Below are positions 1 to 62,203 of a stretch of 64,000 nucleotides of DNA, in pieces (the stretch's first letter is position 1; the number at the start of each line of letters is the position of its first letter). A program made the translations under genes and the position numbers. This stretch comes from Peronospora farinosa (Eukaryota > Oomycota > Peronosporomycetes > Peronosporales > Peronosporaceae), in contig CANTFK010000713.1 of assembly GCA_947646735.1 (NCBI GenBank), positions 310,001-374,000 on the forward strand, written 5' to 3'. The notes under the pieces were generated by a model. That model ran no database searches, was not told where the DNA came from, and was given only the letters and a program-made list of their open reading frames with translations.

Positions 1-123
1 TGTGTGGTTGGTCGACTGCTTAAGCAGTCGTACCACCAGTTGTCTCTCGCTTAAGCGAGAGGGCAACGAACTTCTTACTTCTTAACAAGAAGGCACCGAC
101 GTCACGCAGAAGCTTTTCAGCCT
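1..123 (+). repeat. Left part of family-2 LTR, split by Gypsy insertion
   Basis: This stretch resembles 16190-16300 (+) and the reverse complement of 11430-11530. It joins to 8168 onward once the Gypsy element and one copy of its target duplication are removed; the junction around 'cagaagctt...ctcgtgcg' matches the uninterrupted copy near 16280. It carries two perfect 18-bp palindromes at 13-30 and 44-61. The repeat is probably the LTR of an old Copia-type element, and its beginning lies outside the window. Confidence 0.6.
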
Positions 124-585
124 TGTAACGGGGTGAGCCCGTTACATAATATTGACACTTATATGAAGTGTCAATAAAAATATTATTATAACTAATAATA
201 TTTTTGACAATATTACCTTTTCTAATAATATTGTTCCTAGATCTCCTTGAAGTTTGAGATGCCCTATCATTGGTTGATATGGGCCATCATATCAACCAAC
301 GCACTGACCAATGACCGATGGACGCGCGCAATGAGTGGAGGGCAAGTCGTCAACATACATAGTTGTAGTTTAATATAGTTAACACAGGTTATAACAGATT
401 AGTTTTATTAAGATAGTTAACTATATTAAATACAGTTTTCTTTTCCTCTACTTCTAAGCGTTTGTTTAGAAGTAAAGCTTCCTCTGCCTCTTGTGTAAGA
501 GAGGTAATTGAGGCACCTGCTTTCACTGTAATCGGTGAAAGTAGACTATATTGTAATCAGTATAGTCAAGGGGTGCCCCATTACA
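124..585 (+). repeat. 5' LTR of Gypsy copy 1
   Basis: A 462-bp LTR. It is AT-rich in its first 150 bp and rich in hairpins, for example arms 151-160/166-175. It ends in two adjacent hairpins with a shared TAAT-type loop near 528-567. Compared with the 3' LTR it has scattered substitutions and an A-A for G-G change near its end. Confidence 0.95.
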
Positions 586-587
586 CC

Positions 588-600
588 TGGTAGCACTTCG
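588..600 (+). other. Probable tRNA primer binding site
   Basis: TGGTAGCAC starts two bases after the 5' LTR. TGGTAGC is the complement of the 3' end of a eukaryotic initiator Met tRNA as I recall it, so priming by initiator tRNA-Met is likely. The same bases follow the LTR in copy 2 at 60925. Confidence 0.5.
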
Positions 601-632
601 TGGTCCGTTCAGCGACCACCGCACCACCCGCT

Positions 633-1735
633 ATGGAATCAGCGGGTGATGAACGTCATTACGCAACGCGTGATGATTTCCGCCATTTGAGTGACCTCGA
701 ATGGAATGCGGTTCAGCGTATGGCTGAAACCATCGGCAACCCTGCCGTTGGTGCCATTTTGCTCTCTCTTAGCGGAGACGACCAACATGCAACCATCGCC
801 AAGTTCATACAACATGAACTTGACGAAGTCGTAAAGAAACTCACCTTGCTACAGGAGCAAGGTTCTCAACAGGTTGAACTGTTGAGACAACAGCAGGCTA
901 GTGCTGTTGCTGCCGGGTCGACGTGTATACGCCGACCCGAGTCCTTGAAGATTGATGTCTCCAAGTACAAGGCAGTCGAAAGCGACTCCTTGTTGAGATG
1001 GTTCGTCGAACTCGACGATGCCATTGAGGCTCGTCACATCGATGACGATGCGATGAAGGTCAAGTTCGCCATGTCGAACTTAGCAGGACGTGCCAAAGCT
1101 TGGGCCTTAGGGCTCAAACTGCACGACCCATACGTTTTCCCAACGTATGACGTCTTCAAGGCGCGGCTCAAACACACGTTTGAACCGCCTCGCGCCGAAT
1201 TCAGGGCTCGGGCTGAGCTCCTGGATTTGAAACAGGGTAAGCGTGACATACACGCTTACGCCCAACACGTACGATACCTCGTTAGCTGTATCGTACTGAA
1301 CCCAATTGATGAACACACGCAGGTTACTGTGTTCATCAAGGGTCTGACAGATGGTCCTGTCAAGACCCACCTGTTCCGCTTGGAACTAGAATCGATGGAT
1401 CAAGCGATCTCTGCAGCGGAACAGTAGGACTTTAGCCTACAACAGGCTCACGTCCACTCGGGATCCTATCGTCCACCGAGACGACAGGAGGGCGGAGGTC
1501 CAGAACCAATGGACCTCTCCTATGTAGAAAGCGAGCGACCTCGCTCTCCAGGGTACAAGCGATTGCAAAAGTGCAATCGCTGTCAGAAGTTGGGCCACTA
1601 CGCTTATGAGTGTAGTGCCCCACGCCCAGTGTGGGAGTGACGATCGACCGTCTGCCAAGAAGGGCCAGAGACGTGGGTCCCACGTTGCTGCGAAATCGCA
1701 ACAACGTGGTGGACGATCAAAAAACGGTCGGGATC
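633..1735 (+). pseudogene. Gag with CCHC zinc knuckle (Gypsy copy 1), broken
   Basis: The Gag structural polyprotein binds and packages element RNA. The frame is open from the first ATG at 633 to a TAG at 1425-1427. Copy 2 reads GAG at the matching position, so this is a nonsense mutation and the same frame continues. The central part (about 960-1350) matches the retrotransposon gag domain: FVELDDAIEARHI, then KAWALGLKLHDPYVF, then the AEL-LDLKQG region. A CX2CX4HX4C knuckle (CNRCQKLGHYAYEC) follows at about 1574-1615. An 11-bp deletion relative to copy 2 shifts the frame soon after the knuckle. Copy 2 carries about 72 bp of extra CAA-type repeats near 61210-61280 that copy 1 lacks. Confidence 0.85.
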
Positions 1736-1849
1736 AGTAGGGGCGGAGCGCCCTACTGATCCAGCAACGTCAAGAGAGTTCGCAGGACTCTTGATGAGGG
1801 TTGCTCCCAACACACAGTCACTGTGTGTTGCCGCTCCCAGTGATGAGGT

Positions 1850-2991
1850 ATCCCTCATCACCTTAAAGATCGAAGTGACAAAGAACATGTCACTTCGGCC
1901 CTAGTTGATTGTGGGGCTTCGAACAACTTTGTTCGACGCCAATCGCTAGATGATCGTAGGCTCAAATATGTTGAGCGCGAGACCCCTCCAACGAGGATGA
2001 CGGTGCGCCTTGCAACTGGCGCATCCGTAACAGTAAAGAAAGTGTAGTGGGAATTCACTACACGCTTGAAGGCAAAAAGTACGATGATGATTTCATCGTA
2101 CTTGATCTGGATGACAAATTTGATGTCCTCCTAGAATTACCATGGATCAGAAGGTACGAGCCATGGGTCAGCTGGCAGCATCGAACCGTGAAGATGCTTG
2201 CCGCTTGTTCATCAGATGGCCATCTGATGAACGTCTTGGAGCGTTCACAAGCGTGTGAATGTACTACGAGTGAGTGTGATGGCCTCACTTGTGGTTCGGT
2301 CGTTAGTACGACTGCACAAGAACTCAGCGTGACAGACAGTCACGCTGTGGAGCAAGATGCCGGCGGCTGTGCACAAGCACAGGCAGCGCCGAAGGTCCAC
2401 CACTCGAATAAGTCGAGTGGACCGGGACATGAATGCTCGCCTAGAGGGCAGCATTCACCGAAAAGTAAACCGGTTGCCCAGAAGCGACAACACGGTAATC
2501 CTAGATCAACTGGAGAGTTGATCGTAGAGGATCTCGCTGTGGTTGCGCCACCACAGCTAGAGGAAGTCGATGGAACAAGTTTCATCGAGCCTGCGGGAAT
2601 AAGTCCCCAGGAAATAATCACTGAGGGAATAAGTCCCCAGTGCCCTGAGGAAATAAGTCCCCAGGAAGTAACCGAGACGTTGAAAGTCTTGGTTAATGAC
2701 GGATCAAACGTAGGCGCTTATATGCTTGATCTGATCGCGCCTCCGAAGTTGACTTCGGAGATAACTCAGTTGCCTACGCTAGAACCTAAAAGGTTCTTGC
2801 GTGATCTGCGTAGTGGCAAAGTCAAGCAGATCTGTGTGCTCGTCGCAGAAGACGAGTACATGACTGACATTTGGTCAGCAACAATTTTTGCCGAGAACGA
2901 ATGGGTTCTCAGCAGCTCATCAATGGACGAAAGTGTCCTTGATGAGAAGACTCGGATTGAACGATATACATCGCAATCTTGGGATCGCTGA
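1850..2991 (+). pseudogene. Retropepsin-like protease and linker (Gypsy copy 1)
   Basis: The aspartic protease domain would cleave the polyprotein. The active-site type motif DCGASNNF is encoded near 1909-1932 but lies in a frame disrupted by a small indel just upstream ('cttcggccc' here, 'cttcgcgccc' in copy 2). The clean open frame runs from about 2047 to 2991 and includes the YDDDFIVLDLDDKFDVLL stretch and a flap/C-terminal region (PWIRRYEPWVSW). It is followed by a low-complexity linker with three near-identical GISPQ/EISPQ units (about 2590-2665). The frame ends at a TGA (2989-2991) created by a short deletion relative to copy 2, which reads through into the RT. Confidence 0.75.
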
Positions 2992-4380
2992 AGTCAAATC
3001 CTTTGTACAAGGATTTGGTCGAATTCAAGGATGTAATCCCTGAATCCGTTCCGTGCGAGTTGCCTAAGGATAAGGCACTCGACACGAGATCGACCTTGTT
3101 CCTGGCACAAAATATTGTGTCATGAAGCAGTGGCCACTGCCTCAGGAACAGGTCGAGGCGATCGACAAGTTCTTTGTCGATCGCCTAGCAGCGGGCCATG
3201 TGAGGGAGTCAACTTCACCTCACAGCTCTCCGACCTTCTGTGTGCGCAAGGCCACAGGAGGGTGGCGGATAGTGCACGCGCTCAATAAGTTGAACGCTGC
3301 AACGATACCGGCACAAACTCCGATACCGAGAAAGGACGTAATCAGAGATGGTATGTCTAAGAGTACCATCTTTTCGTCCATGGATCTGATGGATGGTTTC
3401 TATCAGATCCTAATGCGTGAACGGGACATCCCGTACACAGCAGTGAGCACTCCCATTAATATGCTCTGGGAATGGTTGGTGATGCCGCAAGGGCTCAGTA
3501 ATGCACCAGCCACATTCAATAGATGTGTTTCACATCTATTGAGACCGGTGCGCGAACTCGCACCGAGTTACTTCGATGATGTGTTCGTCTATAGTCGAGC
3601 TATGGGCGGGAAAACAGACGTGGAAGTCCATAGACTCCACTTCCGTAAGGTTCTTACACTTATGCGCGAGCATAAGTTGTACGCCAACCTCAAGAAGTGT
3701 ATATTTGCAGCTAGCGAAATACCACATCTTGGGTGCATCGTCGGAAAGAACGGCGTACGCCCTGATCCAGAGAAGATCAAGGCGATCACCGACTGGCCAG
3801 TGCCAGTCGATGTCAAGGGACTAAAGAAGTTCCTTGGGCTAGCAGCGTACTTGCACAAGTATTCGCGCAACTACGCCGAAATGACAGTACATCTTTCTTG
3901 TTTACTCAAGAAAAATGTAAAGTGGAACTGGAACGCTGACTGTCAGCGTTCCTTTGAACGTATCAAGCAAAGCTTGATGCAATCGCCAGTATTGGCGATT
4001 GCAGATCAAGACAGACCATTTCATGTGGTCTGTGACGCCAGTGATTTTGCAATCGGCTGTGCACTGATGCAATATAATACAGACGGCGCAGAGCGTGTCG
4101 TCTGTTATCAATCGCGTCAGCTGCAACCGGCTGAGCGCAATTACCCGGTGCATGACAAGGAACTCCTTGCCATGAAGTATGCACTGGCTAAGTTTCGCGT
4201 CTATCTCTTAGGAGATAGACCGTTCATTGTGTATACAGACCATGCGTCACTACGCACGGCTGTAAATAGTCCACACCTCTCGCAACGAATGGCGAGATGG
4301 TTGTCGTTCTTCGCGAAGTACAACTTCTCCGTGTAGTATAAACCGGGACGACTTAACGTCGTCGCCGATGCTCTTTCACG
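2992..4380 (+). pseudogene. Reverse transcriptase and RNase H (Gypsy copy 1)
   Basis: RNA-dependent DNA polymerase plus RNase H, the replication core of the element. The open frame runs 3122-4336. RT landmarks in order: the SPHSSPTFCVRKATGGWRI fingers region, the FSSMDLMDGFYQI strand carrying the first catalytic Asp, the LPQGL-type motif (MPQGLSNAPATF), and the active-site YFDD at about 3569-3580. RNase H follows with VVCDASDFAIG and, later, the ELLAMKYAL and YTDHASL segments. A TAG at 4334-4336 interrupts the frame just before the conserved tail ending in ADALSRRPD, which continues in the same frame. The region before 3122 is frameshifted relative to copy 2. Confidence 0.9.
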
Positions 4381-6253
4381 TCGGCCTGACCTAGACCCGA
4401 CTGTGCAATCCGACAGTGATGTAAATACCACTGTCGCCACGCTGAGTACCAGCGTCTTGTCGTCGAGATTACTCGACGACATTAGAAGGGCATGCGCACA
4501 AGATAATGATCTTGTACGCCTGATGGAGTATCTCAAGGACCCATCCACGCAAGCAAAGAAGCGCTTGCCTGCCATGTATCGATCTTCTCTCGATCGATAC
4601 ACCGAACGGAACGGCTTACTGTACTATAAAGCCGTCAACAACGACACGCCTCGTGTCGTTGTACCGCCACAACATGATCTCAGGTTACGGATCATATTTG
4701 AATGTCACGATGCACCAATAAGTGGGCATCGCGGCCGTGAGAAGACCTACCTCACGGTCAGTCGCGACTTTTACTGGCCACGCCAGTATAAGTTTGTGCG
4801 CAAGTACGTGCGTGCTTGCGAGGTGTGTCAACGAGTAAAGCCTAGTCCTTCACTCCGTGCACCATTGCAGCCTCTACCTGTTCCGGCAGAGTGCTAGGAG
4901 TCCGTATCAATGGACTTCGTCTTTGGGTTTCCCAAAGACGCTCACGGGAATAATGGTATTCTCGTGTTTGTAGACAGGTTCAGCAAGATGGTACATCTTG
5001 TTGCTGTACCTGAGTCGATCACAGCAGAGGGCTGTGCTCGAGTGTTTATCGATACAATCTTTCGATTGCAAGGTTTACCCCGTGAACTTGTGTCCGATAG
5101 GGACCCCCGGTTCACGGCTTAGTTTTGGCGTTCCGTGTTCCAAACACTTGGAACACGGATCACAATGTCTACTTCTGACCATCCAGAAACTGATGGTCAG
5201 ACTGAACGCGCCAATCACGTCCTCGAAGAGATTCTTCGAGGGTACGTCCACTCGTTTACGAGTTGGAGTGAGTTCTTGTCGATGGTCGAATTCGCCATCA
5301 ACAACTCCGTGCATGCCTCCACGACGCATACACCGTTCTACGTGAATGGCCTTCGCCATCCACGTGTCCCCACCTTAGTAGAGGATGACTCTAATTTAAG
5401 GAAGGGAGGGACTCGCTCGAGCGAGAACCAATCTGGCTCTTTCTCATCACGCGACGACGTTATGGTCGACGCGAAAGTAACCGAAGTCGTACAATTCGAC
5501 TTCGGTGAAGAGGAAGAAAGTAAGAGCGATGACGCTCTTACTGATAACGATGCTGAAGATGTCAGCATCGTTCGAGGTATCACAAGTGAGAACAGTATTG
5601 TTCTCGCTGAATTAGTAACCGATATCTCTGCAGTGCATTCACATTGCACTGCAGCCAAAAGCAACGAGTCAGCTGAGGTTTTCCTGCAGACTCGTGAAGC
5701 GGTAGTCCGTTTCGTGCAAGATTCCATCGCGGAAGCGGTGGATAAGCAAAAACGAAACGCAGACAATAATGGAAGGGCAAATGCTCATACATTTATTGAA
5801 GGTGATTTAGTTTTACTGTCAACAGTAAACCTACCTATACATGTAGTGACTAACGTGGGCAGCAATAAATTGTTGCCCAAGTACATCGGCCCGTTTCGTG
5901 TATTGCACCGCCTAGGCAACGCATACACGATCGAGTTGCCACGCAGGATGCGTACGCATCCTACGTTTTACGTGGGACGTCTTCGTCCGTACGTTCAGTA
6001 CGCGGCTTCTTCGAACGACGAAGATAGCCATTACGCTCAAGAATCCCCTTCAGATTCTTGTTGTCACGAACCAGATTCGATATCTGGTCGTGTAGAGATG
6101 AGATCTTCCCATGATATTGGACGATCTCCTGACGAGCTGTCTCCAGCTCGTTACTCAGAGAATGAAGTCGCCGCTCATTCTCCAATAGTGCGACAGATTG
6201 TTCGCCCGAGACCTCTCATGGTCAACCCCAAGCTGTCGCACAATGTCCTCTAA
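4381..6253 (+). pseudogene. Integrase (Gypsy copy 1), with two internal stop codons
   Basis: DDE integrase, which inserts the cDNA. It begins with an HHCC zinc domain (HDAPISGHRGREKT then CEVCQRVKP, about 4707-4850). The catalytic core has MDFVFGFPKD (first Asp), the SDRDPRFT second Asp, and the ETDGQTERANH segment with the glutamate. In-frame TAG codons at 4895-4897 and 5120-5122 cut the core into pieces, but the frame is otherwise unchanged, so these are point nonsense mutations. After the core an acidic Ser-rich linker is followed by the GPFRVLHRLGNAYTIELP and THPTFYVGRLRPY segment typical of chromovirus integrase C-termini. Confidence 0.9.
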
Positions 6254-6369
6254 GCGGCGACGCTTATCCCGTTCGTGATCAACATCACAACGGAGCTCAC
6301 GAGTTACACGGGCAAACCCGTCTAACTCAGCAGCCAAGTCCGATGAAAGAATCGGACAGGGTTTTTCCT

Positions 6370-6645
6370 CCACCACCGCATCCGCTGGTGGACTCCCATG
6401 GTAGGAAGCGCTTCCTCGTGGAACGCTTACTAAAGCATCGCGAGGTGAAGGGACGTCGGACGAGTTATCTCGTCCGGTGGCGTGGCTATCTGCCTTCGGC
6501 GGATAGCTGATAACCTAGGGCCCAACTGATGGCCGACGTTCCCGGCCTTGTCGAACAATACGACAAGGGGCACACGATGGTGAAGGACCATCGGAAAACG
6601 AGCGCCCAGCGCGTTCGTAAAAGGATTGCAAAGTAGCAATCCCTT
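6370..6645 (+). pseudogene. Integrase C-terminal chromodomain
   Basis: In another frame from the integrase, 6380-6510 encodes a chromodomain-like stretch (FLVERLLKHREVKGRR, YLVRWRGYLPS). The two stops after SADS fall where a Trp-Glu pair is expected. Chromodomains target chromoviruses to histone-modified chromatin. The frame change between 6253 and here means this copy could not make it as part of integrase. Confidence 0.75.
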
Positions 6646-6767
6646 CACGCATTTCGGAAGAGATGCGAGCCCTCCACCAGGGCTCAGTAAGGAGGTACGC
6701 CTCCTTAGGCATCCGGTGCAAACGATAGCATGCACCGGACGTACTTCGTTTCTCAAACTTATTGCGG

Positions 6768-7604
6768 CTAGCGAAAAGTCTTTGAAACCAAGCCTCTTTC
6801 CCAACGTTTTAAAACGTTGGTGATAAACGCGTTCCAACATTTGAGGAACGCGTCGGTCTCACGCTTCTTGTGTGGGCCATACCATCGATGTTCAAGGAAC
6901 ACATCGATGTAATAGTCGTTCTCAGTGCGAAAGTTCTTCGCACTGGCGTCAAGGCCATGAAGCTTTGACGCATCAAACAACGGTATGGGGAACCGTTCGT
7001 TGGTCTTTCCAGACCAACGATCAAGCAGATGCTTAGGTAGCATCCATGGCTTGCGATCAGGAGCAAGACGCAATACGTTGCGGTCTAAAGCCTCCTGCGT
7101 GATGTCAACAGAAGTGACGACACCACGAGCATTAGTGTCAACAGAAGTACCGACACTATGAGCATTGATGTCAGTAGAAGCACTGACATCACCCTTACGG
7201 TCCCCACTCGAGTCACTATCCTTCGTCTCGTTTGGCGAGTCGTCTGATTCATCAGACGACCCGAACATTTCACGGTACATTGATTCACTCAATGTACCAC
7301 GATCCCTCTTCGTAGCATCAGACGACGAGGTATCACCCCGGGGAGAGCCCGGGAGTGACACAGGTGGCTTTGAGCCGGATGCGTCATCCGACTCACCAGA
7401 GTAGTCAACGACTAACTCTGAGTCAACATCTTCACGTGGCGAAGCGCTACGTGAACCTGCAACAGGCGTTGCAGGCTGATGATGAATTCCAGCAGACACA
7501 TTAGTGTCTGCTGGCTGAGGCTGTGAAGCCTCAGTAGCGGCTGCACACAGGCGTGCAGCCGAGCTCTTGGCTGCCTTAGCAGCAACGCGCATTGACTTTG
7601 TCAT
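6768..7604 (-). CDS. Antisense ORF inside the Gypsy element, 279 aa
   Basis: A fully open antisense frame lies between the chromodomain and the 3' LTR. I chose the ATG at 7602-7604; the frame also runs open upstream to about 7661 without another ATG. The N-terminus is Ala-rich and basic (MTKSMRVAAKAAKSSAARL). The middle is Ser/Asp-rich and probably disordered, with near-repeated SVDTN/STDIN units. The C-terminal 90 residues look folded (KPWMLPKHLLDRWSG, then YYIDVFLEHRWYGP, then FLKCWNAFITNVLKRW). I recognise no family. Unlike every sense ORF of this element it has no stop. Antisense accessory ORFs at this position are known in some plant Gypsy lineages; homology is not implied. It could still be chance, since hairpin-rich DNA has correlated strands. 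Confidence 0.5.
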   Translation of the reverse strand: MTKSMRVAAKAAKSSAARLCAAATEASQPQPADTNVSAGIHHQPATPVAGSRSASPREDVDSELVVDYSGESDDASGSKPPVSLPGSPRGDTSSSDATKRDRGTLSESMYREMFGSSDESDDSPNETKDSDSSGDRKGDVSASTDINAHSVGTSVDTNARGVVTSVDITQEALDRNVLRLAPDRKPWMLPKHLLDRWSGKTNERFPIPLFDASKLHGLDASAKNFRTENDYYIDVFLEHRWYGPHKKRETDAFLKCWNAFITNVLKRWERGLVSKTFR

Positions 7605-7690
7605 AGCGTATAATTGTTGGAATAAAATAAAATATAACAAGTGCTCCTTTCTTATAGTCACTAAACAGTCACTAATGTGACTGTTGGTTG

Positions 7691-7702
7691 AGGAGGGGGT
7701 GA
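7691..7702 (+). other. Polypurine tract
   Basis: AGGAGGGGG lies immediately upstream of the 3' LTR, as expected for the plus-strand primer of an LTR retrotransposon. Confidence 0.75.
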
Positions 7703-8162
7703 TGTAACGGGGTGAGCCCGTTACATAATATTGACACTTATATGAAGTGTCAATAAAAATATTATTATAACTAATAATATTTTGACAATATTAGCTTTAC
7801 TTATAATATTGTTCCTAGATCTCCCTGAAGTTGGAGATGCCCTATCATTGGTTGATATGGGCCATCATATCAACCAACGCGCTGACCAATGACCGATGGA
7901 CGCGCGCAATGAGTGGAGGGCAAGTCGTCAACATACATAGTTGTAGTTTAATATAGTTAACACAGGTTATAACAGATTAGTTTTATTAAGATAGTTAACT
8001 ATATTAAATACAGTTTTCTTTTCCTCTACTTCTAAGCGTTTGTTTAGAAGTAAAGCTTCCTCTGCCTCTTGTGTAAGAGAGGTAATTGAGGCACCTGCTT
8101 TCACTGTATTCAGTGAAAGTAGACTATACTGTAATCAGTATAGTCGGAGGGTGCCCATTACA
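7703..8162 (+). repeat. 3' LTR of Gypsy copy 1
   Basis: A 460-bp LTR, TGTAAC...TTACA, followed directly by the AGCCT target duplication (8163-8167). It contains clean hairpins such as 8122-8131/8136-8145 (10-bp stem, 4-nt loop) and 8027-8035/8044-8052. Confidence 0.95.
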
Positions 8163-8167
8163 AGCCT

Positions 8168-8546
8168 CTCGTGCGTGGTGCGTATGTTTAAGCAAATTCA
8201 AGACTGAGCTATATTTAATTAATTATAACTAAATATATACTTAACTACTGATTGGATATATATTTATATAGATCGGATACGCGACTCTTTAGAAGCGTAT
8301 CCTGTCGCATGAACTTAAGTCTAGATTTAAGATCGCAACTGACGTCCTTCTGAGACGTCGTGATGCCTAGCTTCAACTAGCGTCATCCCTTCTCATGTGA
8401 ATCCATCATTGGATATCACATTCACGAGGGTGGATCACATTTGTGTATCGCACCCAAGTGACAAGTCAAAAGTAATCATGGATACTTTTAGACCAAACAT
8501 TAAGTATATTACTTTATGCTTACGTGTAACTAGATGCCCTGTTACA
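8168..8546 (+). repeat. Right part of family-2 LTR
   Basis: This is the continuation of the repeat at 1-123 beyond the Gypsy insertion. It matches 16295-16570 (+) and the reverse complement of 11070-11430: shared landmarks are CTCGTGCG, AAGCAAATT, GATCGGAT, GACGTC and the block CACATTCACGAGGGTGG. It ends at TGTTACA like an LTR. Confidence 0.6.
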
Positions 8547-8581
8547 TTCGGGCTCTACGTGAGGCTTCATTCTCTCATTGT

Positions 8582-9145
8582 CTGAAGCTGCAACACACAG
8601 TGACTGTGTGTTGGTAAAATATTCGTCAGGAGTCTCGCAAACTCTCTTGACATTGCTGGATCAGTAGAGCTCTCAGCCCTTACTGACCTCCAAATATTTT
8701 TTAAGGGTCCATCACGTTGTTGTGATATCTCAGCAGCGTGGGAACCACGTCTATAGCTATTCTTGGTAAGGACGATCTTCAATCACATTGCGACGAGACA
8801 CTGGGTGTAAGGCATTACACTCATAAGCGTAGTGACCTATCATCTGACGGCGATTGCAGTTTTGCAATGGCTTGTATTTTGGAGAGCGAGTTCGCTCGCT
8901 CTCTACATAAGAAAGGTCCATTGAATCTGGACCTTCGCCCTCCTGTCGTTTCGGGTGAACGATAGGATCCTGAGTGGACACAAGCCTTCTGCAGGCTGTA
9001 GTCTTCCTTTTCCGATGCAGAAACCGCATGGGCAAGCGACTGTAATTCTAAGTGATACTGGTGATTCTTGAGAAATAGATACGCAAGAATCTTGATGAAC
9101 ACTATGTTCGTCGATTGAAGCCAGCACGATATAAATAGCGAGGTA
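8582..9145 (-). mobile_element. Inverted diverged Gypsy gag/knuckle fragment
   Basis: On the minus strand this matches the end of gag and the zinc-knuckle region of the Gypsy element (about 1250-1835 in copy 1). The stretch PDSMDLSYVESERTRSP corresponds to the gag C-terminus, and CNRRQMIGHYAYEC is a knuckle whose second Cys has become Arg. The reading frame breaks outside 8757-9035. It sits between a family-2 LTR and Copia pol debris, so it is an older insertion or rearranged piece. Confidence 0.85.
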
Positions 9146-11060
9146 TCGTGCGTGTTCGACAGAGTTGGCGGGATTATCTACTCGGACCTGAAAGATCCAA
9201 TGAAGCCGCAAGACAGGCAAGGCAGCCGCTACTTGGCCGACTTCGTTGGCCACGAGTCAAATTAATCTTGCGTCTTCCTCGCGCGCACGATGCTAGCAGC
9301 AGCGAATCAATTCGAAGCTTTCCTGTTTTTTTAAAAAAGCGTTTCGAGTTCCGCATTCATGTGCTGCGCACTGATAGCGGTGGAATATACGCCAATGCTG
9401 TTCGACGCACAGAATGCGCAGCTGCAGCAAGCGATGGGCGACGATGACAAAGACGATAAATAAGATGATTCGACACCAGCACTGACGTCAAAATTGAGAT
9501 TAGCAATCAACAACAGCGGTTCCGATAACAAGACGGCTCGTAAGAAGAGTTAGGAGTCGTGCGCATGGAAGTCAAAAGGCACGCGCGGCGCATTAAAGAG
9601 CGCGCAGGAGACCGCACCTCAGGAGGGGAAGCTAGCGAGTTGCATCGTCGCGAATGCTGCTTTCGAGCACGGTCCCATGAGGCAATGCGCAGAGACACTC
9701 GCGGCGGCTGGATTAAAGAAATGAAAAAAAGAGATCGCGACGCTCCAGAATAAAACGTCTGGCAAGTCGTCAAGCGCACCCTGGCTTAAACTACTTGCAC
9801 ACCAAGTGGATCTACAAGACCAATACTGACGCGCGGGGTAAGATTTAACGGCTGAAGGCGCTACTTGTCTTTAATGAAAAAGAAGAATTTTTGGATGTCG
9901 ATACACCCTCAGATTTGCCACTGTCACTGACCTGTCGACTGTGAAGGTTATACTGGCTCTAGCTTCCACATGGAGGGGGGGGGGCGACTGCCAATCATGG
10001 CGCCATTTACAATGCATATGTCAAGTCTGACAAGAAAGATAAGCTGTAGATCTATCTCCAGCTGCCGCGCGGCATTAGAAAGCTTAACGAGACGCTGCAA
10101 GAGCACGGCGTCGAAAACGCAAACGAGCTAGGACTGAAGCTTCGCAAGAGCCTCTATGTACACAAACAGGCTGAGTGACTATGGTGTCAGCTATTGCACT
10201 CGTGCCTTGTCAAATTCGGATTCCAGCGCTGCGAAAGTGACATGTGTTTCTACTGGAATTGATATGGGTAAACCTCGTCGTCGTTGGTGTTAACGTAAAT
10301 AATTTTCACGCAACATGTACAACGCATAAGCAGTCGATCGTTTCTCTAAAAGCCTCGCGTCATTGTAGATCAAATATCTTGCCTAATTTGCAAGTTTCTC
10401 GGAATGCAGATCGAGCTGGACGGCATCAGCGGTTATTCTTTGGACAGGAAAAAGCAATTAGCGACCTCATTTGCACAAACGGACTGGCGAACGCCAACCT
10501 GACACGCGCACCGATTTATGCGACTGCCACGATGCACAGTCGACGACGAAGAACTACTTGGTTCTTTAAGTGCTCCCGCTAGGCCAAAGATCCGCGAATC
10601 TTAGTCACTCGTGGGCATCTTAATGTGTGTCGTGCGCTACACACGACCCGACATGGCTTTTGCGGTGCATAAAGCCACGCGACAAACGCATGCGACGCGC
10701 TTGATCGACTAAAATCTTTCAGTGATGCTGACTTTGCGGCTGATAGAAATTCGATAACTGGAGGCGTGCTAAGACTCAACGGTAATGTAGTAAGCTGGGC
10801 GCGCGTAAGCAGAGTGCGTGTCAATGTCGACTATGGAGGCCGATTTCGCCGCTGCCTCAGAGATTACACGTGAAATGCTAAGCCTCCACGAAATGATAAA
10901 AGTGAAGTAGCCATCGCATCGGCTGTGCCGATGATGCTCCACGTGTAAGGTGGAATAAGTGGAGAAAGAGCGTAAGGCGTATTCGAGGATGGGGGTTGCA
11001 ACCAAATTGTTAGGGACATGGACTATCTTTCGGTGACAGGAAAAGGCATATGCAACGCGA
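9146..11060 (+). mobile_element. Decayed Copia-type pol (integrase, RT, RNase H)
   Basis: No open frame survives, but conserved Copia landmarks appear in order across shifting frames. The integrase shows YSDLKDPMK, RYLADFVGH and HVLRTDSGG (about 9165-9395). The RT shows LLHTKW-type residues and KTN-DARGK (about 9790-9845), LQLPRG (about 10060), LGLKLRKSLY (about 10130) and VGVNVNNF at about 10280-10302, where the catalytic YVDD has decayed to VN-NN. RNase H shows DADFAADRNSITGGV at about 10725-10770. The order identifies Copia rather than Gypsy. It is presumably part of the element whose LTR ends at 8546. Confidence 0.75.
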
Positions 11061-11729: not shown

Positions 11730-12600
11730 ATCCACTTCAAACACGATCAATGGTGACAAGATGAAGCTGTGTTGACTAATACGCACATTCAAAGAGTGTG
11801 AAAGTGGTTTGGCTCAGCAATGAAGCATCTCGCAGGATGTCAAAAGCTCTGCATTCAGTAAAAACACATTTCCGACCCTAGCTTAAGGAAGAGACATACT
11901 TCGAAGACTTGCTAGCCTTAGTACGGCACCAGTAATGCACATAAAGTAATTTTATCAGAGCCCGTCAAGTATATTACGTTATTTCCACTTAACTAATCGC
12001 TTTATTTCTAAAACCTCGCAGCCTCTCCTCAATTTACCGACTTTGATAGGAAATTGGCAGTCCATAAGTTCTCGATAAACTTAATTTTTGTTTTCGAGCT
12101 TGACAGTCTGCGAAGAACTGGAATATTTGACAGAAGCATCGGGGATAGTAACATGCAAAGGCCCATTGATTTGAGCCGCTATTTACTCAAGGATACATTA
12201 TTCTATCGAAGCTCCTTTTCTCAAGGAAGATTTCTCGCTATTCCAAGGTGCTCGTATTTAAAAATAATAAAAAGACTTTGCTGAGAACTGGCCTACCTTC
12301 GATTTGCTGTTAAAATGTAGCCGGCACGTAGACGTCCAAGACTTATTCGAAGCGAGGAGTGATCGAATTCATAGCAAGGCCAACTGAAAACATAAAGGCC
12401 ATGTGCAATGTCGACAGGATGTCATGCCCCTACTGTCTAGATAAAATCAAGTTACTACGTCTACCTGAATGCATTTTTCTGGAAGTGTTCAAGATCTTCG
12501 TGTTAATGGAATGACTAGTGGGCTTCGAGCACGTTCAGAGAACCCTTCATTATCCTAAAGATTTAAGTGAAAAACAACATGTAACTTTTGACCTAGTAAA
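11730..12600. other. No recognisable gene
   Basis: Short interrupted frames only (longest about 76 codons). I see no conserved motif. It is probably old repeat debris between retroelement fragments. Confidence 0.6.
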
Positions 12601-12604
12601 CTTT

Positions 12605-13265
12605 AGAAGGTCGAACAACTTAGTCTAGCGCTAGTCGCTAAAATAATAATAGGCTTATATATGTTTATCGTGGGGTCTCATCAACAAGGATGACGGTGCG
12701 CCTTGAAACATGCACATCCGTAAAGGTACAGAAGCGGTAGTGGGAATTCACCGCACGCTTGAAGGAAAAGGGTGCCATGATGCGTTCATCGCACCCGATC
12801 TGGATGACAAATTTGATTTCCTCTAGGATTACCATGGCTAAGAAGGGTACAAGCCATGAATCAGCTGGAATCATCGACCCCTATAGATGCCTGCCGCTTT
12901 GTTTATTAGATGGCCTTATGATGAACGCATTGGAGCGTTCACAAGAGTGCAAATGTACTATGAGTGATGTGCGATGGCATCACTTGCGGTTGAATCGTTA
13001 GTATGCTTGCACACCAACTTAATGTGACAAATATCCACACTGTAAAGCAAGCTGCCGGCGGCTGTGCACGAGCACTGGCAGCGCCGAAGGTCCATCACAC
13101 GAATAAGGCGAGTTAACCGGGGCATGGATGCTCGCCTGGAGGGCAGTATCTAAAAGAGAAGAAACCAATTACCTGGAAGCGGCAGCAATGTAATTATAGA
13201 TCAACTAAAGCGTTTTTCATAAAGGGTCTCGCTGTGTTTGCGCTACTACAGCTATGGGGAGGTTG
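12605..13265 (+). mobile_element. Diverged Gypsy protease-region fragment
   Basis: Collinear with about 1920-2560 of Gypsy copy 1 (shared landmarks: ACAAGGATGACGGTGCGCCTTG, GTGGGAATTCACCGC, GATCTGGATGACAAATTTGAT, GCTGCCGGCGGCTGTGCAC), with many substitutions and several frame breaks. It is clearly an older relic than copies 1 and 2. It matters because its inverted repeats can be compared with those of the young copies (see findings). Confidence 0.9.
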
Positions 13266-14300
13266 AAGGAATACTATTCACGAACTTGAGGGTCAATATC
13301 ACCGTCTTGGTGATCTATAACACGATAAAATCATCTGCAGCCGAAAATTCCGCTTCTTTGGCAGCGGCGCGACGTCCCAGGTTTTTCTCTTGCGCGGCGT
13401 ACCACACTCCAAGTAACACGCGTCTTTACACTATATTGATTTGCTGTTTTTTAGCCATCAGTATCTTAGTAGGCAATTCCACTAAATTCACGACCTAAGC
13501 AGCGTCAATGCTTGAGCTTTTGAGCTGCTGCTGTCATCTTGTTATGATTCTGGTGTCTTTTGTACGACGTGGACTGCTTGACGCCTGTATTTTAGCTGCA
13601 TTTTTCAACGACTAAGTTCGCTAGTGCCTTTTACTGCCGAATTCGCTATTTCTATTTTGCGTAGTTTCATTTTCATCTTCTAATTCCGAACTTTGATCCG
13701 TCGCCTCTTCATCTGCGCTGACCACTGTGCTTTGACATTAGTCACATCTTTCAGTATTGACGACATTTGTCATAATTTTCGGGTCGTTTTAGGGGTCCCC
13801 CTGGTGCCTCGGATAAGCACATTGCATATATATATCACAAACATAACTAAACAATTTATTTGTCGGCAGGTGCTGTGTTTGAATATCGGGCACAGCGTGG
13901 CAATTTATTATTGTTTTTTTCATTGGGACCTAAGACCCGATATGGATCAGTGATAAATTTGCCTGAAACTGAGTGGTTTCGAAAGGCGAGAACACGGTCT
14001 TATTTGTTACGACTATATATTATTTGTGATAAGCACGAATTAAAGATAAATAAAAATCAAAGCTTAATCTACTTAGTACCTACTACTTGGGCTTGAGTTT
14101 TCCTTAAACGCGCGTGTAGGCTAGTAACGATCGTTCTGGCCCCTTACAGTAAGCACCGGCCTGTGTCGTAAGTAGCGCAGATCCAAATCTATCCTCGACC
14201 AGCCCAAAGTACGAAAACAATGTTGCTTACACTACCCTCATTGGTAACCTCATGAACTATGGTCCCAGTGAGTAAGACCTTTTGAAGAAGCATGAAACAC
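13266..14300. other. Unresolved retroelement debris
   Basis: AT-rich DNA with no open gene. A minus-strand stretch near 13610-13760 encodes an acidic SADEEATDQSSELEDENET-like segment that could be the integrase-RT linker of the Copia relic at 14300-15170. The match is too weak to assert. Confidence 0.3.
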
Positions 14301-15407: not shown

Positions 15408-15969
15408 AACAATATTACCTCTGATAGGACATCTCCAACTTCAAGGAGATCTAGGAACAATATTATAAGAAAAGGTAATATTGCCAAATATTATTGGTTA
15501 TAATAATATTTTTATTGACACTTCATATAAGTGTCAATACTATGTAACGGGGTGAGCCCGTTACACCGTTGGTTGATATGATGGCCCATATCAACCAATT
15601 AGAGGGCATCTCCAGCTTCAACCTAGATCTCCTTGAAGTTGGAGATGCCCTATCGTTGGTTGATATGGGCCATCATCTCAACCAACGCGCTGACCAATGA
15701 CCGTTGGACGCGCGCAATGAGTGGAGGGCAAGTTGTCAACGTACATAGTTGTAGTTTAATATAGTTAGCATGGGTTATAACAGATTAGTTTTATTAAGAT
15801 AGTTAACTATATTAAATACAGTTTTCTTTTCCCTCTTAACTAAGCGTTTGTTTAGTTGATCGACTTCTCTGCTCACGTGTACGTGAGGTAATTGAGGCAC
15901 CTGCTTTCACTGTAATCAGTGAAAGTAGACTATACTGTAATCAGTATAGTCGGAGGGTGCCCCACTACA
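15408..15969 (+). repeat. Rearranged Gypsy LTR with inverted 5' portion
   Basis: 15408-15567 is the first part of the Gypsy LTR in minus orientation, ending at the LTR terminus TGTAACGGGG-TGAGCCCGTTACA. Next comes a short minus-strand piece (about 15568-15625). From CCTAGATCTCC at about 15626 the sequence is plus-strand LTR through to the normal end at 15969. The LTR subfamily differs from copies 1 and 2 in several hairpins. No element body adjoins it, so it is a solo LTR remodelled by inversion or nested insertion. Confidence 0.75.
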
Positions 15970-16039
15970 CTGTTTGCTTTTATATGGTACAGTGGTCGCG
16001 TTGTTCAGTGCTTGCGTTGTTCAGTGCTTGCACGCTCAA

Positions 16040-23624: not shown

Positions 23625-23694
23625 TGAAAAAAGGTTGTCGGTCAAACAAGTCCGACATTGCAATTCATCAGATCAAATTAGCTCTCTAGAAACA

Positions 23695-26600
23695 ATGGCT
23701 GACTCGATTCAAGATACCGATCAAGCAGTTGAAGTTGGTATCAACGCTACAATCAATACACAGAGTATCTTGCTCAAACGGAATCCTCATTTGCGTGAAA
23801 ACAGTCAAACGTCGTCTCCTGCGGGTTTCGGAGGTCTCGGTGCACGTCAAAATGTCCTAAAACAATTAATGACTCCAGGCTCCGCGACGTCTGCTTCGTC
23901 ATTTGAAGAAGGCGCGTCGTACGATGGATTATTTGATACTGGTACCCCAGCGTCGGATCGAGGTTCCATGACCAAGTCAACTAGGACGGAAAAGATGCCA
24001 AGGCTGACCAAACAACCGACTAAAAAGTTATCGTCTCCAAGTCGAGAGTCTCTCATGAGACGTCTCGTGAATGATGAAGAAAATTCTTGTCGAGTTGATG
24101 GAGAGGTAGACGATTTTCTTCCTAGTGCCATACTTGACAACCTTGTGGTCAAGCGTGTGCCAACCATTTATGCCGAAGATGAAGCCAAAGCTTTGTCGAC
24201 CTCAATACCCTCGTCAACATCTCCGTCGGCCAAGCTGACACGACGGATAGTGGTGCCGCCACGCAAAAACATGCGGCGTGTTGTGGTACGTAGCACTGGT
24301 GCAGATGGACAAACTCATGAACAAGTACGATATATGGAAGCTGACGGACAAGTTGTCCAACAAAGTGGCAATGCTGCTGAAGATGTGACGGACGAGACCT
24401 CAACAATTTCTGTAGGAAGATCGACAATTACTGGTTATGCTTCAACACCGGCGATGACTCTGCGACGTGTTGTAGTCCGTAAAACTGGAGCGGACGGACA
24501 GGTCCATGAAGAAGTACAATTTGTGGATGTTAATGGAAATGTCGTTGACGGTGAAGGGGTCGCTCTTAATGTCACGACAAGTACTATGACCCCCACGCCG
24601 GTCACCACACAGCAAATCGTAACACCAAGGAAACTGACGCAGCGTACTTTGCGTCGTACTGGAGCTGACGGCCAAGTTCACGTACAAGTGCAGTATCTTG
24701 ATGTCGATGGAAACATCGTACGGACGGAAGGTGAAGATTTTGATAGTATCTCTGGCTCGTCAGCAGTGACAAGACGAATTGTTACCCCCGGCAAGACCAC
24801 TCGACGAGTTGTCGTTCGTAGGACGGGGGCGGATGGTCAAGTTCATGAAGAAGTGCAGTACATGGATGCGGATGGCAACGTCGCTCAAAGGAACGGGACT
24901 GCACTGGCGACGACTAGCGGAAGCGCTACAAATGTTTTTAGTTCCGGCCGCACTACGATAACTCGACGTATCGTGTCACCCGGACAGACATACGCTAGTA
25001 TCGATAGCGACATGTTACCGCCATTTCGTTTGGACGGCACTAGAGACTCGGTCGAACAGCATATCGGCGGAGATGGACAGACGTTTGAAGATGAAGGTCG
25101 CTCTTTTTCGAGCGTAGGGAGCTTCTCGGGTAGCGTCAGCAGTGTCACGAGTGATACTTCCACTACGACTTCCTCTCGACGCATTGTTACTCGTCGACTG
25201 ATGACATCGCCAAACACAGTACCGGCAGTGCATCGCAGTCTTGTGCACAAAGCCGGCTCCAGTTCTGACGCCCAATATGAAGAAGATGTGCAGTATGTGG
25301 AGTCGAAAGACGGCGATCTCACTACCAAAGTCGTTACTAGTCAGAATGGTCCAGGTCGTCGGGTTACTACTCGTCGGGTAGTAACCCCACAACGTGTGGT
25401 TCGGCGCATGGTTATTCGTAAAGGAACTGCTGGCTCAGGCACAGAAGCTGTGAACGGATCGGTTATCGACGCGGGTTCTGCTCAGAACGAAGACAACGCT
25501 AGCAGCGACGAATCGCTGGGTGGATCTAGTAGTGGCCGATACTCCGTGTCGGATCGAACCGTGATTCCGTCAAAAACTCGACGAGTAATTTCTCGTACAG
25601 CATCTCCTTCCGACAAGTCGCAAAAGAATCTCGATGAAATTACTGTGACCGATGCATCCCTGAGCGAGAAATTTGAGACCACTACGAGCTTGAGTGATGA
25701 GGAGAACGCGTCTTTTTTTCGATCACGTGACGGATCTACTTGCACTAGTGCAGCATCTAAAAGAGCTGACGTTGACAGCACGAAAGTTGATGGTGACAGC
25801 CAGGAAACGCTGAAGGCTAGAGTTGTAGCGACTGTGGCTGGTGCTGCTGTCACGGCGTCTGCTGTCGATGGCGATAGTAATAGCTTTCAAAATGAGATTG
25901 AGGGAGTGCTTGCTGTTGATGAGCGAGCTACGACGGTAACAAACGACATTGCTGAAGCTGAAAAGGACGAAGAGCCATTTGTTGTTGGTGGATCCTGGAA
26001 GATATTCGGTAAGACGGAAACGAAAATGGCTTGCTCAGAGGCATCATGTAGCGACGATAAAGAACCAACTACATCAAAATCGGTTGTTGCCCCACACAAT
26101 GAAAAGCTTGTCGATGTACCTGAAGCTGCCAAGGCTGACGCGTCCAATGTGGTTGCTGACTTTAATCGTCAAAGCGAGCCTAAGCTTTCTTCATACCAGA
26201 ACAGTGATACTGTCGCTGAAAACCCACGCGTTAGCGATGTACCTAAGACTTCTGACGTAATCGCTGATGCGTCGATGATGGCACCAATGGAAGAATCTTC
26301 ACAGGGTCGTAGCGATTCAACCGTGGACGCTCTTGTGTCACAATATAGTGGAGTCAGACCGTCGTTTGCGGCCCGCGAAGCCCCCCAAAAGCTACCGACA
26401 CCTGAAGAAAACGAAAATGAGCAAACTGCTGCGCTTCACGAGATCAGTACTCTGCATGAAGACAAGACACCCGTTTTACCTGCTGAAAACGTGAGCGTTG
26501 AGGTTCCGGGGCCCCACGCAGCGACAAAGTCGTTTGTTGTTTCGCCAGTGTCTCCACGTGAGAACGACTTTGTTCAATTATCTGCAGTTATTGGTGCGGC

Positions 26601-29600
26601 AGGAGTGGCAAGTGTGGTGGAGAATGACCCCAAAGAGCCTGAACCTTACTCTTCTACTGATCTTGCGAAGACTGCAGCTACTTTAGAAGAATCTCACGCC
26701 GCAGTGGCAACCACTGAAGAGGATGTATCAAATATGCCGGACCGAAAGACTAAGCGTAGCTTTTGGAAGTTGTGGGGCCCTAACAAGTCTAAAGCTTTTC
26801 GTACTGAAGACGAGAAGCTTCGTGACATGGGTGAACGTGAGGAAAGTTGTGTTGCTGCTGGCGCTGAAATGGCTGACAAGATTGGATCGCCTGTCATACA
26901 CGATCAAGGTGCTGTTGTTGCGTCTCCGCTAGCTGGTATAGCACGGCTGGCACATACAATAGTTGAAGTAGAGGAAGGACTTGAGCCGGGGCACTTGGAT
27001 TACAATACTGCTGCGTCTGCGTTCGACATTACCACAGCTGATGATAGTATTGTGTCTCCAGAGTCTCAACAGTTTGAAGAGCGTAAAAACTCTGGGCGCG
27101 AAGAGCTCATGGAAGTTAAGCCTGAGCGAGCTGGTGGTTTGTGGGGTTTCTTCGGCAACAAGTCCAAATCTGCTGCAGTGATGACCTCTCTTAGCTCAAG
27201 TAATAAAGTCAGCCGGGTCATCGAAGGTGAAGACGACAAGATGACACCCGACATAACTACACATAACAACGAGATCGCCGCAGTTGATCAGGTAGAACCT
27301 ATCCGCCATTGCATCCAGTCCGATAGCATTTTGACGAATGCTGCTGCTCCTGTGGCCTCATGTGGAAGGACTGTCCGAGACAGTGAACGCCGTACGACCG
27401 AACTCATTGATAGCATTGAGCCTGATATCGAATTGGACAATCACTACGTTAGCATTGCAAGTCCTCGCCGAAGCAGTCCACCCGATGATTATGAAGTATG
27501 GACTGTCAAGCCTTGTTCATTGGCGTGGAGCAACCTTTGCCTGAATCGCAAAAGCTGGAAGACTTTCTTGGCGGGTACTGCATTTTCAGGTAGCGATGAA
27601 TTTGTGCTGAAAGATGTAAGTGGAACGGTGAAGGCTGGTGAGTTCTTGGTCATTACGGGCCCGTCAAGGGATGAAAGTCTTGCTCTGATGTCTTGTCTTG
27701 CCGGGTTTGAAGATGCCATGGAAGGCAATGTGACGGTCAATGGCCACGAATGGAGTGAAAAGATGAACCACTACACTGGCTACGTTATGCACGAAGACTT
27801 GTTCTATGAGACGTTGACCGTGCAGGAGCATCTAATTGCTCAAGCTCGCCTTCGTATGCGCCGCACGCACACGGATGAGATGTGCTTGAAGCGAGTGGAG
27901 CATGTCATTGCGGAGATGTGCCTCTCCGGTTGCCGTGACAAGTTGATTGGTGGTGGTCTTTTGGTGCGTGGAATTACCCGGAGTGAGCGGAAGCTACTCG
28001 CCCTTGCTACAGCTCTGCTGACTAACCCATCGATTCTTTTCGTTGAAGAACCCACTGACAATTTGGACACCTTTGGCGCCGAGAAACTTGTTGCCAAGCT
28101 GCGTTGGCTTGCATTCGAGAAGGGATTGACAGTAATCGTGACCCTGCATCACCCGTCCTCGCACTTTTATAGGCTTTTTGACGTGCTGTACTTGGTTGCT
28201 GACGCCTCATGTGTGTATGACGGCAAGGCGGCTGATTGCATTGCTTATTTTTCTGCGATCGGATACCAGTGTCCGGAGTACATGAGTCCAATCGACTACT
28301 TCATGCTTCAAATGGTCGTTGGCGATCGAGAATCTGATAACGAAGGTGTGGCTCGAGTCGATGCACTGAAGCGCGAATGGAACCAGCGTAAGGCTGCAAT
28401 ATATGCTGGGAATCCTGCTCATGTTGCAGCAATGAGTGAGGATGTAGTCGTGGATGAGCACGACCAGAAAAACTGCTACAACCGCATGGGGTGCTGCGGT
28501 CAGCTATGGCTCTTGTGGGATCGCCACATTCGTCGACTTTCACGCTATGGGTTTGTGTTTCAATGGCACTTACTGGCTGCGCTTTTGATCGGCGTGGTGT
28601 TTGGACTTGTCTATCTCCAGATTGATCTTAAGGACGAACACGGAATCCAGAATTTTGCCGGTGCCTTCTTCTACCTAGTGGTGGTGCAGATGCTCTTCGC
28701 CGCTTACCGGACTTTTGTGTTTATGCCGCGAGAGACTGCTATCGCCTTGCGTGAACGACAAGAGTCTTGCAGTGACGCGTACTCGATGACTCTGCTGTGT
28801 TGGTACTTGACCAAAATCGTTGCGGAACTACCAGCCCTCATCATCCTTTCGATCGTGCTGTTTGTGCCAGTATTTTTGCTCGTCGGTATCGGCAACGGCT
28901 TCATGATGTATGTCTACATGCAGATCGTGATGGTGCTAGCTGGATGGACTGCTGTTGGCTTGGCTTTCGCAACTCTTGGTGTTCTACGCCATGTTACGCT
29001 TGCTCTCTTCGTGTACACCATACTGTTGATGCTTTTCGGTGTGTTTGGTGGTCTCCTTATCAACGTGACAGATATTCCCGACTGGTTCGTGTGGTTGCAC
29101 TACATCTCGCCTATCAAGTACAGCTACGAGTCCATGATGAAGATCTTTTGGAAGCGTGTCGACAATATTGATTGTGATCGGACTCTGAAAGGCTGCATCG
29201 CTTTCACTGGTGACGGCGTGCTCGAATACTACAGCATGGAGAAACGGTCGGTATTGAGTGACTCGTTGATTCTGCTGGTCATTTGCTTGTCTCTCTTCTT
29301 CGTAGCGTTCTGGTTCCTTTTGGCACTCGCAAACAAACGTATTAGCAGGATGCAATGGCGCTATGACTGGGACTTTAAGGGGCCACTGGGCCACCGCCAA
29401 CAGCGAATCGCTAGTTCTGTTAAGAGGAAGGCTGCCACGAAAAGCAGTATGCACCACATCATTGACCAAAAGAGCCAACATAACTCTTCCGCTGCTGCGG
29501 AACGCAGTATTGTCGTCGAAACAGGGAATCACTACATTTCCGTAGAGACTCCGCGTGCTGGTGGTCGTGGAATTTGTGATGCACCGAGTATGACTCTGGG

Positions 29601-60105: not shown

Positions 60106-60463
60106 TGTAACGGGGCACCCTCCGACTATACTGATTACAGTATAGTCTACTTTCACTGATTACAGTGAAAGCAGGTGCCTCAATTACCTCTCTTACACAA
60201 GAGGCAGAGGAAGCTTTACTTCTAAACAAACGCTTAGAAGTAGAGGAAAAGAAAACTGTATTTAATATAGTTAACTATCTTAATAAAACTAATCTGTTAT
60301 AACCTATGTTAACTATATTAAACTACAACTATGTATGTCGACAACTTGCCCTCCACTCATTGCGCGCGTCCATCGGTCATTGGTCAGCGCGTTGGTTGAT
60401 ATGATGGCCCATATCAACCAATAAGAGGGCATCTCCAACTTCAAGGAGATCTAGGAACAATAT
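60106..60463 (-). repeat. Gypsy LTR, minus orientation, interrupted by copy 2
   Basis: Begins with the LTR 3' terminus on the minus strand (TGTAACGGGGCACCC) and runs through most of the LTR until GGAACAATAT, where copy 2 starts. The remaining roughly 130 bp of this LTR should lie beyond the far end of copy 2, outside the window. If AATAT (60459-60463) is the target duplication it should recur there. Confidence 0.85.
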
Positions 60464-60922: not shown

Positions 60923-60969
60923 CCTGGTAGCACTTCGTGGTCCGTTCAGCGACCACCGCACCACCCGCT

Positions 60970-62172: not shown

Positions 62173-62203
62173 TCCAGCAACGTCAAGAGAGTTCGCGGGA
62201 CTC

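Follow-up and report, generated by a model that had tools for sequence, protein, structure and literature searches.

A Ty3/Gypsy retrotransposon of Peronospora farinosa is tiled with short perfect hairpins in its terminal repeats and coding DNA

The window analysed here is a stretch of 64,000 nucleotides (nt) from the oomycete Peronospora farinosa (contig CANTFK010000713.1, positions 310,001 to 374,000, forward strand). Its left end holds a Ty3/Gypsy retrotransposon (124-8162) that has paired long terminal repeats (LTRs) with TG...CA ends, a 5-bp target-site duplication and the domain order Gag, reverse transcriptase (RT)-RNase H, integrase. This element is tiled with short perfect hairpins, which affect the LTRs, the pieces of open reading frames (ORFs) and an antisense ORF alike. 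The Gag, RT, RNase H, integrase zinc-binding and SH3-like domains sit in broken frames, and the integrase catalytic core was found in none of the ORFs searched within the element. Over 62% of its length, the RT shares 94% identity with a protein of Peronospora effusa. The candidate primer-binding site presumably resembles the end of the initiator tRNA. In the ORF without a Pfam match at 2047-2991, a motif of about 15 bp occurs three times (2594-2665). The coordinates are collected in Table 1.

Table 1. Features of the hairpin-tiled element and its relatives in the window
Feature	Position	Strand	Remarks
Target-site duplication, left copy	119-123	+	AGCCT, read directly
Ty3/Gypsy LTR retrotransposon, tiled by short perfect inverted repeats	124-8162	+	84 stems of at least 8 bp; domain matches
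5' LTR, TG...CA	124-585	+	6 perfect stems of at least 8 bp; 97.0% identity with 7703-8162
Candidate primer-binding site	588-594	+	immediately inside the 5' LTR; position read
gag ORF piece	600-1427	+	PF03732; 9 stems, 0.43 in codon shuffles
ORF	2047-2991	+	no Pfam match; 8 stems, 0.36 in codon shuffles
Perfect palindrome, 26 bp	2207-2232		in an ORF
RT and RNase H ORF piece	3122-4336	+	PF00078, PF17919, PF17917; 10 stems, 0.25 in codon shuffles
13-bp stem, loop 5	3156-3186		13 bp in the window copy only; mismatch in the other copies examined
12-bp stem, loop 3	3516-3542		within RT; absent from the aligned RTs of L038, L074, L075 and L076
RT hairpin site	3789-3811		a stem each in L038/L074, L075 and the window family; L074 and L075 differ by one compensated pair
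Integrase zinc-binding piece	4403-4897	+	PF17921; 4 stems, 0.14 in codon shuffles
ORF piece with SH3-like (Tf2-1 type) domain	5135-6253	+	PF24626; 12 stems, 0.34 in codon shuffles
Conserved antisense ORF	6768-7661	-	297 amino acids (aa) here; 12 stems, 0.49 in codon shuffles; homologues
Purine-rich tract	7690-7702	+	upstream of the 3' LTR; read
3' LTR	7703-8162	+	97.0% identity with 124-585
Target-site duplication, right copy	8163-8167	+	AGCCT, read directly
Diverged relative (75%)	8586-9156	-	gag of the relative; compensated stem pairs
Diverged relative (78%), decayed	12544-13271	+	zero perfect stems of at least 8 bp remaining
Second family copy, truncated by the window edge	60464-64000	+	97% identity; 42 stems

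The hairpins were counted as perfect inverted repeats of at least 8 bp with a loop of 0-12 nt, and this definition of a stem applies below unless another cut-off is given. The 84 stems of the element correspond to 10.45/kb and place 19.8% of its bases within arms, whereas 100 dinucleotide shuffles gave a mean of 1.22 stems and a maximum of 6. For the 5' LTR alone, the shuffles gave 0.15. The second copy reached 11.9/kb. Direct repeats were much less raised in the element (10, with 2.8 expected). The host stretch 16500-60000 contained 12 stems (0.28/kb) compared with 7.95 in 20 shuffles. When the codons of the six element ORFs were shuffled synonymously 100 times each, the 55 observed stems compared with a summed mean of 2.0 and with no more than 3 in any ORF. 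The same treatment of 11 host coding sequences gave 3.9 stems against 6 observed.

A sequence-only reading of the window had listed fifteen of these hairpins, expected a density far above shuffles in the element and not in the host genes, and concluded that a process unrelated to the proteins constrains codon choice in gag and pol. All fifteen are exact, with 13 of 13 arm pairs perfect over 9-13 bp and the two palindromes perfect over 26 and 20 bp, and both the contrast with the host genes and the effect on the coding regions are borne out by the shuffles. Its spacing of one hairpin every 40-60 bp included near-perfect repeats; perfect stems are more widely spaced, about every 96 bp at 8 bp and about every 69 bp at 7 bp. 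The hairpin tiling is therefore confirmed as a real feature of the element. Chance, composition or an assembly artefact is refuted by the dinucleotide and codon shuffles, by the occurrence of stems in 28 copies over many contigs and by protein homologues in other records, and its probability is practically nil.

Folding of both strands, which the sequence-only reading had proposed, showed a strong excess on each strand in 63 tiles of 120 nt. On the plus strand, the mean z was -4.4 (RNA) and -5.3 (DNA), and on the minus strand -4.8 (RNA) and -5.4 (DNA), whereas four host stretches folded in the same way gave z between -1.3 and +0.7. No clear energy difference between the strands emerged, with 0.76 (standard error 0.70) for RNA and 0.33 (standard error 0.26) for DNA.

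When loops of up to 20 nt were allowed, 87 stems were found. Loop length peaked at 4-5 nt (38 of 87), and 82 of the loops had at most 10 nt. The longest perfect stem measured 13 bp, or 15 bp with loops of up to 60 nt. Between 124 and 7702, 348 of 716 stem pairs were G-C or C-G (48.6%) compared with 50% for the element overall. The closing pairs showed no preference (31 of 67 were G-C or C-G), and no common tetraloop emerged, since 17 of the 18 different 4-nt loops were found once. This background composition, together with closing pairs and loops that are not optimised, fits copying and not selection for stability. The orientation bias of RNA stems reported in part of PMC8794818 (G-C and U-A over C-G and A-U) was absent from the element stems, where the orientations are balanced at 182:166 for G-C to C-G and 172:196 for the T-A type; the relative at 8586-9156 alone leaned the opposite way for T-A (3:14, p 0.013). 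Since the bias requires wobble intermediates, its absence is compatible with plain copying.

The stem lengths bear on the suggestion that the hairpins act directly as Dicer substrates, either feeding small-RNA silencing or evading it. Phytophthora does produce 21-nt RNAs from inverted repeats, according to passages of PMC3804510, but the perfect stems of the element stay below the approximately 20 bp for Dicer, and they are separate from each other instead of forming a single long foldback. This explanation, which the sequence-only reading had also raised, is very improbable.

The mismatch spectrum was analysed in stems with one mismatch. In the 52 stems with at least 9 matched pairs, the plus strand showed 21 A-C, 14 G-T, 14 pyrimidine-pyrimidine and 3 purine-purine mismatches, and in the 28 stems with at least 10 matched pairs 15, 3, 9 and 1, respectively. 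Selection for a structure of the sense genomic RNA, serving packaging, stability or shielding as in RNA viruses with genome-scale ordered structure, would agree with the very strong folding bias over the whole element and with the compensated changes described below. However, G-U is free in RNA and yet was not commoner than A-C in the larger set, GC-rich stems, GC-rich closing pairs and common tetraloops are lacking, and most RT hairpins are not common to other families. Selection on folded sense RNA thus fits poorly; the mismatch spectrum and the missing GC enrichment led us to reject it as first choice, and we consider it quite unlikely.

The distribution of the stems was then followed across copies and element families. 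The best 40 of 1134 candidates with a DNA match to the RT yielded 28 family copies for analysis, including the window copy and the second copy. Stems were present in all 28 (1232 in 128 kb, 9.62/kb overall and 5.9-11.2 per copy). The 29 best-scoring non-Gypsy PF00078 loci among at least 150 matches, termed LINE-like (long interspersed nuclear element) on a long RT match and frames alone, had 0.20/kb. In the 15 best Copia loci (PF07727), the density was 0.73/kb, which comes partly from adjoining pieces of the window family or its sister in loci L040 and L042. From the many more Gypsy loci in the genome, four were sampled. L038 and L074 belong to one family (97.7% alike), and L075 is 75% alike to L074. 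Stems of at least 7 bp numbered 16 in L038 compared with 2.5 expected, 6 compared with 0.7 in L074 and 8 compared with 0.6 in L075, and none of 200 shuffles reached the observed values. L076, with 1 such stem and 0.6 expected, represents a Gypsy family without the pattern. The claim that the tiling is confined to this element is too narrow, since it occurs in a weaker form in two further Gypsy families of this genome. Most RT hairpins of L038/L074 and L075 are located elsewhere than in the window element; the stem at 3382-3410 persists in L038/L074 with 7 bp and a 13-nt loop. DNA relatives beyond this genome were not confirmed in viral_contigs or genome_contigs.

We then asked how the stems change over time. 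The 677 mutations private to single copies were blind to the stems: 15 completed a stem where 18.3 were expected (standard deviation (sd) 4.2), and 124 broke one where 121 were expected (sd 9). This randomness speaks against chromosomal replication as the source of the hairpins, and correction by the host after insertion was rejected for the same reason, no visible process acting on the stems once a copy is inserted. As the private mutations probably postdate insertion, they say little about copying events. Within the family, 1 of 461 pairs has two Watson-Crick states, which makes the recent burst uninformative.

At the subfamily level, the element was compared with three diverged stretches (75%, 78% and 82% identity), using 285 pairs in stems of at least 7 bp. 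Unchanged were 196 pairs, 66 were broken on one side, 8 were lost in gaps, 13 were changed on both sides to another Watson-Crick pair and 2 were changed on both sides and broken. Among the 15 pairs with a change on both sides, 13 thus remain Watson-Crick, whereas about 41-50% are expected by chance from the transition share (p 0.0004-0.004), with some of the compared pairs in the AT-rich LTR falling in overlapping stems. The stems were therefore probably retained or rebuilt during replication of the lineage.

The effect on the proteins was investigated at the level of residues and of codon phase. Among 120 RT homologues, residues encoded in stems were less conserved than the others, with a mean top frequency of 0.73 compared with 0.83, and no circular shift gave so low a value. 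Stems whose wobble positions oppose each other are strongly disfavoured by synonymous choice and make up 7.3% of the potential stems when the proteins are shuffled. Nevertheless, 8 of 36 actual stems of at least 9 bp belong to this phase (p 0.004, or p 0.01 relative to the 8.5% offered by the real proteins). The stem potential of the six element proteins exceeded that of shuffles in all three phases, with 496 compared with 394 (sd 35), 69 with 42.8 (sd 5.8) and 246 with 152 (sd 26). Six host proteins when pooled showed no clear excess (890 and 883, 65 and 100, 395 and 334 with sd 37). Taken singly, gag, the zinc-binding piece and the antisense ORF were raised. Purely synonymous hairpin formation is disfavoured by the phase classes and the protein stem potential, even with the uneven and non-significant results given below. 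Taken together, phase classes, stem potential and RT conservation indicate that hairpin formation probably reaches past codon choice to altered amino acids; the evidence for this is good but not final.

The antisense ORF has homologues at 83% in P. effusa and at about 40% in P. matthiolae (139 found), and a relative over one third of its length in P. destructor. In this genome, at least 150 matching rows came from the 132 candidates scored out of 366. Several copies carry longer antisense open frames of about 600-660 aa, the window version being shortened. A search of Pfam with this ORF gave no match. It contains 2.4 copies of a 33-bp unit at 7102-7180.

Because this conserved antisense gene exists, both strands are perhaps under selection. 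Sense and antisense RNAs may coexist, and dense local hairpins in both could slow the pairing of the two into long double-stranded RNA, thereby shielding the element from silencing. Only Watson-Crick pairs would then help, since every G-U pair of one strand corresponds to an A-C mismatch on its complement. The equal folding of both strands and the lack of a G-U preference agree with such protection, as do the compensated pairs and a hint of stem avoidance in shared variants. When the arms of the antisense-ORF relatives from different species were compared with swapped arms, they matched slightly better in 9 of 12 stems; in RT, no such co-adaptation across species was seen (5 of 10 stems above swapped arms). 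However, the stems are not enriched in GC, closing pairs and loops are not optimised, and among the matches listed, which come from the scored candidates mentioned above, no relative of the antisense ORF lies near L074 or L075, although both loci bear hairpins. This weakens the rival without removing it, as L074 and L075 may have another antisense gene. Selection on folded nucleic acid, perhaps on both strands, is the main rival to the explanation that we favour, and sense-antisense protection is its best selective form, possible but with a rather low probability.

The process behind the hairpins acts in the life cycle of the element, creates or maintains arms that are Watson-Crick-perfect, is blind to stability and to region, and is limited by what the proteins tolerate. 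Hairpin-templated copying would account for each of these features. We favour hairpin-templated (quasi-palindrome) copying during reverse transcription, of which the hairpins would be the accumulated product, and give this explanation an even chance. The element's own RT would make cDNA, and wherever the new strand can fold back on itself over a loop of some 4-10 nt, its 3' end would copy the opposite arm in place of the true template and then return, which is a short intrastrand template switch. An imperfect inverted repeat would thereby be turned into a perfect one, and many cycles could tile the element from end to end. Copying events harmful to a protein would be purged, such that stems gather where the protein tolerates them. 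We infer three parts of this scheme, namely reverse transcription as the step, folding of the nascent minus strand, and a bias that is mutational and not selected.

Parts of three papers (PMC8794818, PMC8604942, PMC3820800) describe the quasi-palindrome or template-switch mechanism as established for DNA polymerases. According to these, template switching converts imperfect inverted repeats into perfect short hairpins, both arms can be compensated, amino acids can be changed, and loops of four nucleotides are enriched among the products in RNA genes. The short near-identical inverted arms with small loops that mark a template switch are found in the element. Somewhat more tentatively, we propose that in a Ty3/Gypsy clade of downy mildews the RT copies its own folded product so often that genome and proteins drift towards a chain of perfect hairpins, with self-complementarity as a mutational attractor that steers protein evolution.

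Hairpin-templated correction, which the sequence-only reading had named among possible causes, became our first choice as it fits most features; several observations weigh against it. No copying event was caught: 206 variants present in at least 2 copies completed 12 stems of 7 bp compared with 10.3 expected (sd 3.3). The 88 variants in at least 3 copies broke fewer 7-bp stems than expected (17 compared with 25.3, sd 4.1), a weak hint of selection; 9-bp stems were broken as expected (15 compared with 14.7). Shared variants were also denser in loops than in stems (p 0.036). An 8-bp stem that is missing in other copies is built in L072/L073, at the site matching window 3508-3530, by a linked pair of changes that sit one in each arm, not both in one arm. 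The RT stem residues differed from the commonest residue of the relatives in 31% of cases compared with 22%, which is not significant (p 0.11). The stem potential is uneven among the proteins: the 5135-6253 piece has no excess, and of three host proteins tested individually, one (52007-53884, z 2-3.4) was raised as well. In addition, the copying model leaves the absence of the pattern in LINE-like elements, Copia and one Gypsy family unaccounted for.

A further point against it comes from the strand on which mismatches are stable. In stems with at least 10 matched pairs, 24 of 28 internal mismatches were best tolerated on the minus strand (p 0.001), taking as baseline the minus-strand-friendly share of 0.568 predicted from the spectrum of shared variants. 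This would be expected from selection on folded single-stranded minus-strand cDNA (or antisense RNA), either for shielding from nucleases or deaminases or for the control of strand transfer. The effect depends on the threshold, however, with 35 of 52 at 9 or more matched pairs (p 0.08) and 41 of 69 at 8 or more (p 0.38), and neither a clear difference in folding energy between the strands nor GC enrichment accompanies it. Mismatched stems were few in the other families. We regard such minus-strand selection as improbable.

In the surroundings, the flanks of the element are rich in hairpins as well (2 stems in 1-123 and 6 in 8163-9200), because the element lies in or beside a diverged relative; it seems to sit within one, whose gag lies in antisense at 8586-9156. 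An LTR fragment at 60106-60468 stands head to head with the 5' LTR of the second copy, and a rearranged LTR was seen at 15422-15970. Elsewhere in the window, a 51-bp repeat (7.8 copies) is followed by an 18-bp repeat (4.9 copies) at 43173-43664 inside the ORF 41631-44120 on the minus strand. At 23635-31476, an ORF of 2613 aa has ABC transporter domains, the best stretches shown lying all past residue 1324.

If the cause is mutational, as in hairpin-templated copying, a reverse transcriptase rewrites its own genome including the proteins, with a strength of bias not met in descriptions, and analyses of codons or of the ratio of nonsynonymous to synonymous changes (dN/dS) would be misleading for such elements. 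If it is selective, the retrotransposon would carry a genome-wide structural code, perhaps against sense-antisense pairing. Either cause would make the family a natural high-copy system for testing the birth and upkeep of hairpins, a matter termed an open question in RNA-gene evolution in part of PMC8794818.

A hairpin-tiled LTR retrotransposon was not found among the best-ranked matches, judged mostly by listing, in open-access literature exclusive of bioRxiv preprints. The main text of PMC5348765 on oomycete retrotransposons does not contain the words 'hairpin', 'inverted', 'antisense' or 'stem-loop'. The window element resembles oomycete Ty3/Gypsy elements (Metaviridae) in its LTR ends, its target-site duplication and the order of gag, RT-RNase H and integrase. 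It differs by the hairpin tiling over its whole length and by the conserved antisense gene that precedes the 3' LTR; the literature located describes neither feature for oomycete Ty3/Gypsy elements. With template-switch mutations, it shares the short, near-perfect inverted arms; those are described, in the parts of the papers named above, for DNA replication and for particular loci, whereas here about one fifth of an 8-kb element is involved, and a reverse transcriptase would be at work.

Two further kinds of system offer a comparison. In RNA viruses with genome-scale ordered RNA structure, the folding energy is far below that of shuffles throughout, coding regions included. The folding energy of the element is likewise well below shuffles along its length, but the element consists of discrete short Watson-Crick hairpins without a preference for G-U and without GC enrichment. 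Foldback transposons, miniature inverted-repeat transposable elements and palindromic repeat insertions have inverted repeats within mobile DNA, as does the element. In those systems, one repeat sequence is shared or terminal, whereas the hairpins of the element vary in sequence and lie inside coding DNA.

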